A stretch of DNA of 64,000 nt from Myxococcales bacterium (GTDB lineage: Bacteria; Myxococcota_A; SURF-8), in contig QZKR01000079.1 of the NCBI GenBank assembly GCA_003598065.1, positions 1-64,000 on the forward strand, read 5' to 3'. Below are positions 4,673 to 14,446 of the stretch, in pieces (the stretch's first letter is position 1; the number at the start of each line of letters is the position of its first letter). A model generated the notes under the pieces. The model saw only the letters and a program-made list of their open reading frames with translations. It was not told the DNA's origin and searched no databases. The position numbers and the translations under genes were made by a program.

Positions 4673-5979
4673 AGCCGACAAAAATCACCACCCTGGGGCT
4701 TTCGCTGGTCCTTTGGCTCTGCACCCAGGCCGCCTGGGCCGACATCGACACCACGGCCGCCGTGCTGCCGGTGTACAACGCGGCCAACCTCGATGCGAAG
4801 AACGAGGCCAAACTGGTGAAGGCGCTGGAAGCGCCTCTGAAGGCCCGCGACGGCTACGACCTCGTGCCGCAAAGCCGCTCCAAGCGGGCGATGGGCAAAC
4901 GGCCCAGCAGCCCCGACGCGGCGAAGCTGGCCGCGATCGGCGAGGCGGTGGAGGCGGACCTCGTCGTCGCCTGCCGCGTCTCGGCCGAATCGGCCACGAG
5001 GAAAGAACGCAAACGCGACTACGAATTCGCGCTTTATTTCGTTGACGTGAAAGGCGGCGCGCTATTGGCCTCGCAGGAAGGAAGCTGCGACCGGTGCACG
5101 TCGGCGGAGTTGGCCAAGGCGATCGGCGCGAAGACGAAAGCCCTTTACGCCGGTCCTTATCCCCTGGGTCTGGACACCGATCCCAGCGGCGCAGCCGTGA
5201 AGGTGGGAGACGAAGACTGGGGCGCGACGCCGATCAACAAGCGCATCGCCGGCGGGACCTACACCTTGCGCATCGAAAAAGACGGTTACAAAGCGCTGGA
5301 AGTCGAGTTCGAGATGCCCGACGACCGGCCCGTCTACGCCGCGCTGCCTTTGAAAGAAGACCCGAACTGGTCGCCTGCTCCGGTGGTCCTCGTGCCGCCG
5401 CCGATCGCGCTGGGCCGCAATGAAGCGTCTCCTCCCGCAGCGGCTCCGCCTGTCGCGCCAGAACCGGCCGCCAAGCCCGCGCCGCCTCCGGTTGAGGAGC
5501 CGCCGGCGACGCCGGAACCGCGCGAGGAAGCGAAGCCCGCGCCTGTCGCCGCGCCGGAACCGGAACCGGCTCCCGAGCCGGTTGGCCGCCGGCTGGAAGA
5601 AGGCGATGAAGGCGAGGACGCTCCTCCGCCGCCGGCGCGGAGCGTGAAAAAAGAGATGAGCGTGCAGCGCAAGTGGGCCTGGCGCACGATCGGAATTTCC
5701 GCGGCGACGCTCGCCGGCAGTCTGGCCTTCACCTTCTCCGCGCTTTACGCCGACGACCGGGCGAGCGACGGCAAGCTTCTGCCCTCTACCCAGCGGGATT
5801 ACGCCGACCGCCGCGACGCCTACTGGATCGGCGCTTACACGCTCTACGGAGCGACCGGCGCGGCCCTCGTGACGGCCACCGTTCTCTTCCTCACCGAAAG
5901 CCCGGAGCCGCGACAGGCGGTGATCGTTCCCGCGATCACGCCCGACGGCGTCGGCCTCTCCGCCGTCGTGCGGTATTGA
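4669..5979 (+). CDS. PEGA-domain protein with Pro-rich linker and C-terminal membrane segments
   Basis: 436 residues from ATG 4669, overlapping the previous stop by four bases. The signal peptide ends TQAAWA. Residues about 25-150 resemble the N-terminal region of envelope proteins that sum a score over parameters (AAVLPVYNAANLDAKNEAKLV). A PEGA-type beta domain follows (LDTDPSGAAVKVGD, WGATPINKRIAGGTYTLRIE, KDGYKALEVEF). A long Pro/Ala/Glu linker leads to two hydrophobic segments (TIGISAATLAGSLAFTFSAL and YTLYGATGAALVTATVLFL). PEGA domains are common in surface and kinase-associated proteins of myxobacteria. A related architecture occurs at 55789-57273. The function is not known; a periplasmic or envelope scaffold is likely. 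Confidence 0.7.
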   Translation: MKPTKITTLGLSLVLWLCTQAAWADIDTTAAVLPVYNAANLDAKNEAKLVKALEAPLKARDGYDLVPQSRSKRAMGKRPSSPDAAKLAAIGEAVEADLVVACRVSAESATRKERKRDYEFALYFVDVKGGALLASQEGSCDRCTSAELAKAIGAKTKALYAGPYPLGLDTDPSGAAVKVGDEDWGATPINKRIAGGTYTLRIEKDGYKALEVEFEMPDDRPVYAALPLKEDPNWSPAPVVLVPPPIALGRNEASPPAAAPPVAPEPAAKPAPPPVEEPPATPEPREEAKPAPVAAPEPEPAPEPVGRRLEEGDEGEDAPPPPARSVKKEMSVQRKWAWRTIGISAATLAGSLAFTFSALYADDRASDGKLLPSTQRDYADRRDAYWIGAYTLYGATGAALVTATVLFLTESPEPRQAVIVPAITPDGVGLSAVVRY

Positions 5980-5993
5980 CGGAGGCGGCCGCG

Positions 5994-8150
5994 ATGCGCG
6001 CGAAAGCACAACGGTTCACATTCGTCCTGGCTGCGCTTGCCGCGTGGATCTGCGCCGGCTGCGATCCCAACAATCTCTTGGCCCGCCTGGCTCAAGGCGC
6101 GGGTTACTGCGACGAGGCCGCCATCGCCGCCGCCGCCTGCTGCGCCGCCGCCGAGCTTGCCGCCAAGCATCCGCGCGTCTGCGGCTTGGTTACGGCGGAA
6201 TCGCTGGGCGCAACGTGTGCGGACGGCGGCGGATTGTTCGGAACGGGCGACAACACGCTCTCCGCCGCCGACGCCGTTGAAATGGATTGCCAAACCCTGC
6301 TTACCGTATTGGGAGACGTCCTCGCGGACGGCGACGACGATCAGCCGGACGGCGACCCGGACGGAGACGCGGACGGAGACTGCCCGTTCGACGGAGCGCC
6401 GTGCAGCGACGGCGATCCCTGCACCGAGAACGACGTCTGCGATAAAGGCGAATGCAAATCCGGCGAACCGAAAGACTGTTCCGGCCTCGATACCCAGTGT
6501 CGCGTCGGCGTTTGCGAAGCCGGGGAGTGCATTAAGCAGGAGAAAGACAACGGCGAGCCTTGCGACGATGACGACAAATGCACCGTGGAAGACCAGTGTA
6601 CGGACGGCGTCTGCGGCGGCGAGGCGAAAACCTGCGACGACGAGAATCCCTGCTCTATCGACGCCTGCGACCCCGCCGACGGCGAATGCCGGCACGATTT
6701 CGAGTCCATGGAAAACGAAGCCTGCGAGGACGGCGATCCCTGCACGGCGCAGGAGCGGTGCCTATCGGGGGTCTGCACGCCGGGCGGGGCGACGGATTGC
6801 TCCGGCTTCGGCGACGATTGCAACGAAGGCGTCTGCGGCGAGTCCGGCTGCGAAAAGCGGCCGCTCCAGAACGGCCTCGACTGCGACGACGAAAGCCTTT
6901 GCACCTCCAACGACGCCTGCCAGGACGGTGTCTGCACGGGTCTGGCCGCCGATTGCGCCGATACGAATCCCTGCACCGTCGATGGCTGCGATCCCAGCAC
7001 CGGCGAATGCCTGCACGACGAGGCGGCGGCGAACGGCCAGGGCTGCGACGACCTGAATTTGTGCACGGAGGGCGATGTCTGCCTGGACGGCGTCTGCCAG
7101 TCCGGCGGGCCCAAGGACTGTTCCTTCCTGAACACCGACTGCGCGGTCGGCGCCTGCGCGGCCGGCGTCTGTCTGCCTCAGAGCGTTCAGGACGGCGTCC
7201 CGTGCGACGATCTCGACGCCTGCACCGAGGGCGACAAATGCCGCGGCGGTCTGTGCAGCGAATTCGACAGCCGCAAGACCTGCGACGATCAGAACGAGTG
7301 TACCGTGGATAGCTGCAATTCCGTCACGGGAGCTTGTTCGAACGTGGTGAACCCGAACACCTGTCTGATCAGCGGCAGATGCTACGCCAACGGCACGCCG
7401 AACCCGGCGGAGCCGATCTGCGCTGTCTGCGATACGGACGCCAATCACATTGGCTGGACGCCGATCAACGAAGGCGGGGATTGCTCCTCTTCGCTCTGCC
7501 ACGTAAACGACCGCTGCGAATTCGGCCAATGCTATTTCGATGAGAAAGAGTGCAACACCGACGATCCCTGCCGGCGCGGAATGTGCAACCTCGGCACCGG
7601 CGAGTGCGAGTACACGACGGAAGGGCAGGAAGGCCACCCCTGCGACGATCAAGAAGAGGACACCTACAACGACAGCTGCGACTCTCAAGGGGGATGCGCC
7701 GGCACGGAGCCGCCGTTCAGGACGCACCTGGAAACCGGCTCGCTGAATGTGACGACGTATGTCGCGGAGCCGGGCCCGGCGGCTCCGCTGTGCGTGAGGC
7801 TCCAGGTCGAGGCGACCAACAGCGAAAATCTTCGCATCGATCTCATCTCGCCTCAGGATATACCCTTGATGCCGCCGCTGTTCGACCATGACTCCGAAGC
7901 GGCCAGTCCGATTCTGATCGAACGATCGACCGAGCAGTACGCCAATCTGGCGCGGACGGGGGTATGGACGCTCACGATGCAGGTCGATCAGGCCGACCAG
8001 TGGGCGGAACTCCATTTGCTGTCTCTGAGCTTCGCTTCCTGTCAGAAGCGTTCCGTCGCGTCCGACGACGCGGAAGAACCCGTTTCCGGCGATGATAAGC
8101 CGGCGGACGCGCCGGTCTCGGAAGACGGCGATTTCACGCCGGACCGGTAA
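5994..8150 (+). CDS. Cys-rich repeat lipoprotein with C-terminal proprotein-convertase P-domain
   Basis: 718 residues from ATG 5994, with GGAGGCGG five bases upstream. The lipobox is ICAGC followed by Asp. After a short Ala/Cys-rich stretch comes an acidic tract (DGDDDQPDGDPDGDADGD). About 450 residues of repeats follow, built on the pattern PCxDGDPCTxxDxCxxGxCxxG and interleaved with SIDACDPxDGECxH units. Residues about 574-686 match a P-domain (LETGSLNVTTYV, LRIDLISPQ, LARTGVWTLTMQVDQAD), a beta-sandwich often found at the C-terminus of secreted bacterial proteins. The tail is acidic. The Cys are presumably disulfide-bonded outside the cytoplasm. No enzymatic domain is seen; a surface or adhesion role is inferred. 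The architecture parallels the 26016 and 51234 genes. Confidence 0.75.
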   Translation: MRAKAQRFTFVLAALAAWICAGCDPNNLLARLAQGAGYCDEAAIAAAACCAAAELAAKHPRVCGLVTAESLGATCADGGGLFGTGDNTLSAADAVEMDCQTLLTVLGDVLADGDDDQPDGDPDGDADGDCPFDGAPCSDGDPCTENDVCDKGECKSGEPKDCSGLDTQCRVGVCEAGECIKQEKDNGEPCDDDDKCTVEDQCTDGVCGGEAKTCDDENPCSIDACDPADGECRHDFESMENEACEDGDPCTAQERCLSGVCTPGGATDCSGFGDDCNEGVCGESGCEKRPLQNGLDCDDESLCTSNDACQDGVCTGLAADCADTNPCTVDGCDPSTGECLHDEAAANGQGCDDLNLCTEGDVCLDGVCQSGGPKDCSFLNTDCAVGACAAGVCLPQSVQDGVPCDDLDACTEGDKCRGGLCSEFDSRKTCDDQNECTVDSCNSVTGACSNVVNPNTCLISGRCYANGTPNPAEPICAVCDTDANHIGWTPINEGGDCSSSLCHVNDRCEFGQCYFDEKECNTDDPCRRGMCNLGTGECEYTTEGQEGHPCDDQEEDTYNDSCDSQGGCAGTEPPFRTHLETGSLNVTTYVAEPGPAAPLCVRLQVEATNSENLRIDLISPQDIPLMPPLFDHDSEAASPILIERSTEQYANLARTGVWTLTMQVDQADQWAELHLLSLSFASCQKRSVASDDAEEPVSGDDKPADAPVSEDGDFTPDR

Positions 8151-13764: not shown

Positions 13765-13796
13765 GGCCCGCGCATAGGCGCGGGCCAAATATTTTT
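13765..13796 (+). terminator. Rho-independent terminator after cysK
   Basis: Nine-base GC stem (GGCCCGCGC at 13765-13773, GCGCGGGCC at 13778-13786) with an ATAG loop, followed by AAATATTTTT. It insulates the Rrf2-cysK unit from the next gene. Confidence 0.85.
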
Positions 13797-13879: not shown

Positions 13880-13909
13880 TTGACATCCCTGTTTTGGCTT
13901 TGTTAGAAT
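13880..13909 (+). promoter_or_regulatory. Strong sigma-70-like promoter of the Ser-His-Gly repeat gene
   Basis: Perfect TTGACA at 13880-13885, 18-base spacer, TAGAAT at 13904-13909. It is among the closest matches to consensus in the window and predicts high expression. Confidence 0.65.
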
Positions 13910-14035
13910 GCCCTTGTGCCAGTTATGGTTGGAAACCCGCGTGGCATGCTCCGGATGAAAAGTGAGCCGACCCGCTGCCATGGGAGTTGGGGTCGTTCAA
14001 GCCTTTCGTATTAAGCTCGTGCAGGAGGAGAAGCG

Positions 14036-14446
14036 ATGTGCGCGGCAAAGAGAGTTCCATCGATTAAGCGCAAGGTGGCGCAGTTCCTCACCAGCGAGGA
14101 AGGAAAAATCACCAAGAAGCAGGCCCTCACGGCTTCGACGACTCTCCTTCTGCTGGGGCAGTCGCTGAACGCCGAAGCGGCCGAACAGGCCGATGGCGTG
14201 GATGACGGCCACACCCCGACCCACGACTACCTCGACGGCCAGATCGCCCCCGCCTCCGGGACGCTGGACGGCCAGCTTTACGCCGGCCACTGTTCCCACG
14301 GCTCCCACGGCTCCCACGGCTCGCATGGGTCGCACGGCTCCCACGGCTCCCACGGGTCGCACGGCTCCCACGGGTCGCACGGCTCCCACGGGTCGCACGG
14401 CTCCCACGGGTCGCACGGCTCCCACGGGTCGCACGGAAGCTGGTAA
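14036..14446 (+). CDS. His-rich peptide with 16 tandem Ser-His-Gly repeats; possible modified-peptide precursor or metal-binding protein
   Basis: 136 residues from ATG 14036, with AGGAGGAG five bases upstream and a near-consensus promoter. Residues 1-45 have a basic and charged start (KRKVAQFLTSEEGKITKKQA), then a hydrophobic signal-like stretch (TASTTLLLLGQSLNAEAA). Residues 46-85 are an acidic linker. Residue 86 is Cys, residues 87-134 are 16 Ser-His-Gly units, and the end is Ser-Trp. Read as His-Gly-Ser, the tract resembles the His-Xaa-Ser repeats of HxsA-type peptides, but no radical-SAM HxsB/HxsC partner is beside it. Alternatives are a secreted or membrane-anchored Ni/Zn/Cu-binding protein, or a low-complexity surface peptide. 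The two other forward frames across the repeat are open too, but only this frame has the ribosome binding site. Confidence 0.7.
   Translation: MCAAKRVPSIKRKVAQFLTSEEGKITKKQALTASTTLLLLGQSLNAEAAEQADGVDDGHTPTHDYLDGQIAPASGTLDGQLYAGHCSHGSHGSHGSHGSHGSHGSHGSHGSHGSHGSHGSHGSHGSHGSHGSHGSW
14294..14437 (+). repeat. Nine-base tandem repeat encoding Ser-His-Gly, with an 18-base higher-order unit
   Basis: Sixteen in-frame nine-base units. From 14347 to 14436 there are five perfect copies of an 18-base unit beginning CTCCCACGGG, each encoding two Ser-His-Gly. Perfect copies imply recent expansion, so length variation between strains is expected. Confidence 0.9.

Follow-up and report, generated by a model that had tools for sequence, protein, structure and literature searches.

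A predicted HxsA4 precursor peptide encoded apart from its likely radical-SAM maturases in a Myxococcota genome

The window, the whole 64,000-nucleotide stretch of DNA analysed here, is part of contig C14 of a Myxococcota genome bin and carries a 136-codon open reading frame predicted to encode a repeat peptide of the His-Xaa-Ser type. The gene, its putative expression signals and the segments of its product are as follows.

13880-13909, plus strand: sigma-70-type promoter, TTGACA-18-TAGAAT, TG-extended (consensus match only)
14023-14029, plus strand: ribosome binding site AGGAGGA, 6 bases 5' of the ATG (read directly)
14036-14446, plus strand: hxsA4, precursor peptide of 136 amino acids with an ATG start (NCBIfam NF038313 match)
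14054-14122, plus strand: conserved leader motif VPSIKRKVAQFLTSEEGKITKKQ, residues 7-29 (leader-only profile match)
14123-14158, plus strand: hydrophobic stretch ALTASTTLLLLG, residues 30-41, lineage-specific (read directly; relatives compared)
14288-14443, plus strand: core HC(SHG)16SW, residues 85-136 (precursor sequence and relatives)

The gene upstream of hxsA4 is cysK. Because a terminator-like hairpin (13765-13786) separates the two, transcription of hxsA4 probably starts at its own promoter. This promoter agrees with the consensus at 11 of 12 positions, has a TG preceding the -10 element, and is the sole sigma-70-like match in the 1 kb scanned, where 0.2 would be expected. An earlier note on this DNA, made from the letters alone, had pointed to a near-consensus promoter and a strong ribosome binding site, and both were found. 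An Rfam scan of the hxsA4 region returned no score near the gathering level. Elsewhere in the window, positions 5673-8150 encode an 825-residue Cys- and Asp-rich repeat protein with a match to Pfam Dicty_CTDC.

The peptide scores 89.7 bits against the NCBIfam HxsA4 model (NF038313; cut-off 55), and the HxsA3 model matches its leader (residues 8-48) at 48.8 bits, below that model's cut-off. The window gene is therefore predicted to encode a precursor of an already catalogued family, HxsA4, and the earlier suggestion of a possible His-Xaa-Ser-type modified peptide precursor gains support from a match over a curated cut-off. No further HxsA was found in this genome with the HxsA4 and HxsA models.

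Residues 87-134 form 16 unbroken SHG units, followed by SW and the stop codon. The charged leader, the 16 Ser-His-Gly units and the terminal Trp named in the earlier note are all borne out in the reading frame. A Cys does precede the repeats (residue 86), but it is not the lone Cys of that description, as Cys2 follows the start Met. The hydrophobic stretch is likewise present in the peptide, although it is not a family-wide feature: it is seen in relatives from families f10, f33 and f39 and is absent in f5. By itself, the leader shows homology to those of other HxsA4 peptides. Compared without the repeats to a profile built from 34 such leaders, it reaches 45 bits, whereas the best of 2000 shuffles attains 10.8 bits, and its closest counterparts come from families f33, f39 and f10.

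Tandem Repeats Finder reports periods of 9 and 18 bases across 14294-14436. The SHG units of hxsA4 differ among themselves only synonymously. Ser and His are retained in all 340 triplets of 21 distinct cores from relatives, with all six Ser codons in use. Gly is the only triplet position that varies, with four Ala inside the arrays; since the cores were gathered by a pattern requiring a few SH.SH.SH units, a few units per core are search-biased and the rest are unbiased. The pattern is more than chance and amounts to conservation of the His-Xaa-Ser register at the protein level. The flanks of the core are also constrained, with HCSH in 41 of 44 complete precursors, a C-terminal Trp in all 44, and mostly Q, E or G as the residue preceding the core.

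Two explanations of this core would dispense with modifying enzymes. The peptide might be an unmodified poly-His chain that binds Ni, Zn, Cu or Co, a metal-binding role that the earlier note had also raised and that the 17 His in its 52-residue core and its strong promoter and ribosome site would suit. This is improbable, because metal binding alone needs no strict three-residue Ser/His register and calls for neither the terminal Trp of the relatives nor their presence in step with radical-SAM enzymes, described below. Metal binding could be the role of a modified product. A collagen-like reading, in which Gly at every third residue would allow a structural, enzyme-free (Gly-Ser-His)n triple helix, is very improbable. 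The Pfam Collagen model (PF01391) matches at 33.7 bits, above its cut-off of 27.2, because Gly recurs every three residues. In bacterial collagen-like proteins, however, Gly is obligatory and the other positions are free, whereas here Ser and His are invariant and it is the Gly position that varies. The core also lacks Pro, collagen adhesin models fall far under cut-off, and both the leader homology and the presence in step with HxsB would be left unexplained.

The source genome was searched with profile models for enzymes that could act on HxsA4. As a bin it comprises 183 contigs and has 5% contamination, and the separation of its genes is known at the contig level. No radical-SAM gene was found within the window, and the sole match on its contig begins at C14:69087. 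HxsB (TIGR03978) is encoded on contig C1 (G000:C1:186466-187869; 529.5 bits, cut-off 370), and an HxsD-like protein (NF038315; C1:186227-186412), also over cut-off, lies directly upstream of it. Directly 3' of HxsB is a 308-residue radical-SAM protein, rSAM2. On the opposite strand to HxsB, C1 also encodes rSAM3, whose 607 residues include an HxsC4-like radical-SAM domain. HxsD (TIGR03976) is found over cut-off on contig C176 (6861-7115, minus strand), two genes from rSAM4, a 335-residue HxsC-like radical-SAM protein that begins MANLGYIQ (L181:4502-5509, minus strand, G000:C176).

The HxsC component is less clearly assigned. Against the HxsC4 model (NF038332, cut-off 500), rSAM3 scores 77.2 bits and rSAM4 82.9 bits; rSAM4 also scores 105.7 bits against HxsC, and the best HxsC (TIGR03977) match in this genome is 110 bits, under the cut-off of 267.9. 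None of rSAM2, rSAM3 and rSAM4 reaches the HxsC or HxsC4 cut-off, and rSAM4 reaches the cut-off of no NCBIfam model. The genome search that the earlier note had called for thus yielded HxsB and HxsD, with HxsC not over cut-off. Its observation that no maturase lies beside the gene holds for the window; its description of the peptide as a possible orphan does not, if an orphan is taken to lack any enzyme, given HxsB, HxsD and the HxsD-like protein over their cut-offs on other contigs. The HxsA4 match and these distant enzymes together support its alternative of maturation by a distant enzyme. No His-Xaa-Ser repeat runs were found in the C1 or C176 loci.

Three further observations concern these loci. 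A second copy of rSAM4, 47% identical, is encoded at G000:C18:42476-43405. On visual inspection, a membrane protein adjoining rSAM4 (L181:3298-4452, minus strand, G000:C176) resembles an A24 prepilin peptidase (SGGDAKLY); it was rejected as an A24-type leader protease, since neither Pfam nor NCBIfam matched it and the other Hxs loci compared showed no homologue. A reading of HxsD as a PqqD-like leader-binding domain was also considered and is not supported. Its model has the order EEHEEH, and its matches are weak, the best being to Rpb11-like RNA polymerase subunits (E 2e-3, not significant), so the predicted fold identifies no leader-binding domain.

The window, C1 and C176 have matching tetranucleotide signatures, which suggests that the three contigs belong together. 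Contamination of the bin was rejected as the cause of the split, because these signatures agree and the dispersal recurs in a genome of only five contigs (G102).

The candidate enzymes and the precursor have a nearly identical distribution. Among 237 Myxococcota genomes, HxsA4 is found over cut-off in 76, and matches to HxsB occur in 86, to HxsD in 85 and to rSAM4 in 81; the four occur together in 71. HxsB is present in 74 of the 76 genomes with HxsA4 (Fisher p=8e-46). In families where some genomes have them and others do not, the presence or absence of HxsA4 matches that of HxsB in 44 of 49 genomes, compared with 42 in the best of 20000 within-family shuffles; the co-distribution tests correct for phylogeny only in part. 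Some HxsB genomes lacking an over-cut-off HxsA4 keep an HxsA4-like peptide that is sub-threshold or truncated where a contig ends (G003, G025, G027). rSAM4 accompanies HxsB in 80 of 86 genomes, and a single rSAM4 genome lacks HxsB. An unnamed HxsC-like family, rSAM4 thus appears to belong to the HxsA4/HxsB/HxsD set, a membership that is new here.

The subtype of HxsB agrees with this pairing. A tree was built from 38 HxsB proteins; its midpoint root and long branches leave the inner order uncertain. In it, 33 Myxococcota sequences (all but that of G066) form one clade with support of 100/100. This genome's HxsB falls in that clade, together with the HxsB proteins linked to HxsA4. Falling outside are HxsB of the Pseudomonas type and the G066 protein, which adjoins a different, canonical-looking HxS peptide.

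The distance between HxsA4 and HxsB is 77-455 bases in 32 genomes, and the two are unlinked in 42, namely this one, with HxsA4 on C14 and HxsB on C1, and 41 others. All 17 genomes of f5 and all 12 of f10 have the unlinked layout. It is therefore common, and universal in some families of the sample, which is new here. At the other extreme, f39, whose HxsA4 leader is among those nearest the window leader, has HxsD, the HxsD-like protein, HxsB, HxsA4 and an HxsC-like enzyme in one row, and in G177 HxsB and HxsA4 share a row with an HxsC4 that exceeds its cut-off at 631 bits. In G102, 0.8 Mb separates HxsA4 from rSAM4, and other contigs carry HxsB and HxsD; with all four parts far apart in five contigs, fragmentation alone does not explain the dispersal. 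That the window gene is a relic, an HxsA4 copy stranded when its cassette moved and no longer modified, would fit the lack of an adjoining enzyme and the sub-cut-off HxsC but is hardly credible given its unbroken repeats, whose units differ only synonymously, its intact promoter and ribosome site, the retention of HxsB, HxsD and rSAM4 in the genome, and the stability of the unlinked layout across whole families.

Two known systems provide a frame for comparison. The NCBIfam HxsA4 set (NF038313, TIGR03978, NF038332, TIGR03976, NF038315) shares with this genome the precursor family, HxsB, HxsD and the HxsD-like protein. Here, however, the parts are spread over three contigs, no candidate attains the HxsC4 cut-off, and rSAM4 is present with scores below both HxsC and HxsC4 cut-offs. 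The canonical Hxs system, for example in Pseudomonas, consists of HxsA/B/C/D in the account of Haft and Basu as relayed in PMC9062424. His-Xaa-Ser repeats and homologues of HxsB and HxsD are shared with it, whereas here HxsB belongs to a separate clade, the repeat is strictly SHG, HxsC is under cut-off, and the canonical HxsA model (TIGR03979) gives the window peptide 22.5 bits against a cut-off of 121.65.

Taken together, these results make it highly likely that the window HxsA4 is a substrate of a myxobacterial Hxs system with scattered genes, and the peptide is most likely a trans-encoded substrate rather than a true orphan. The peptide family, the presence and subtype of the enzymes, their co-distribution with the precursor and its direct adjacency to them in relatives are read from sequence; from these we infer which enzymes would act on the window HxsA4, in what order, and where cleavage would occur. 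The peptide would be made from its own strong promoter, and its LPxLKKxxxDFLxSEEG-type leader would be recognised in trans by the radical-SAM enzyme HxsB (C1), with help from HxsD, encoded on C176, and from the HxsD-like protein, encoded on C1. HxsB and at least one HxsC-like radical-SAM enzyme, namely rSAM4 (C176) and possibly rSAM2 and rSAM3 (C1), would then modify the His-Gly-Ser units successively. The core HC(SHG)16SW would probably be freed near the E/Q/G-HCSHG junction.

For the chemistry of the modification, cyclophanes joining C2 of His to the beta carbon of the Ser at i+2 are the leading guess, by analogy with triceptides. Triceptide enzymes are radical-SAM enzymes that form three-residue cyclophanes, bonding C2 of His or C4 of Phe (residue i) to the beta carbon at i+2 (reviewed in PMC11002830). 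Links from His C2 to a beta carbon are known for HaaB, YhhB and ScaB, and a link from Phe to the beta carbon of Ser for MscB (PMC11002830). The His-Gly-Ser spacing of the window peptide fits this motif of an aromatic residue at i and its partner at i+2. HxsB, in contrast, lies far below the cut-offs of the FxsB, GrrM/OscB and YhhB models of known cyclophane-forming families, scoring 41-42 bits against FxsB and GrrM/OscB (cut-offs 370 and 310), and no papers reporting the chemistry of HxsB or other Hxs enzymes were found in the open-access literature. The cyclophane reading is accordingly tentative. Equally speculative is the broader picture of a widespread Myxococcota system in which at least two radical-SAM enzymes (HxsB and rSAM4) might turn an SHG polymer into a chain of many consecutive His-Ser cyclophanes, or of some other recurring His/Ser crosslink, with the precursor encoded far away in many lineages.

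Mining for precursors near the maturase would class this HxsA4 as an orphan, because such mining searches beside the enzyme. Unlinked HxsA4 and HxsB can still be paired through leader homology and co-distribution, and the likely pairing of this precursor with its maturases in spite of their separation is new here. HxsA4, HxsB, HxsD and rSAM4 form a defined four-part set for testing Hxs enzyme action.

No neighbouring gene common to the unlinked HxsA4 of all families was found. In f5, the copies are followed by genes for a YkuD transpeptidase and a protein kinase. In four f10 genomes (L106, L107, L110, L123), HxsA4 lies immediately upstream of ccmE-ccmF-ccmA-ccmB on the same strand, a possible link to cytochrome c maturation. 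Upstream of HxsB, L041:2843-8140 encodes a large protein in which Pfam recognises Cu-binding MopE motifs, and proteins related to it adjoin HxsB in two further genomes (L114 and L116).
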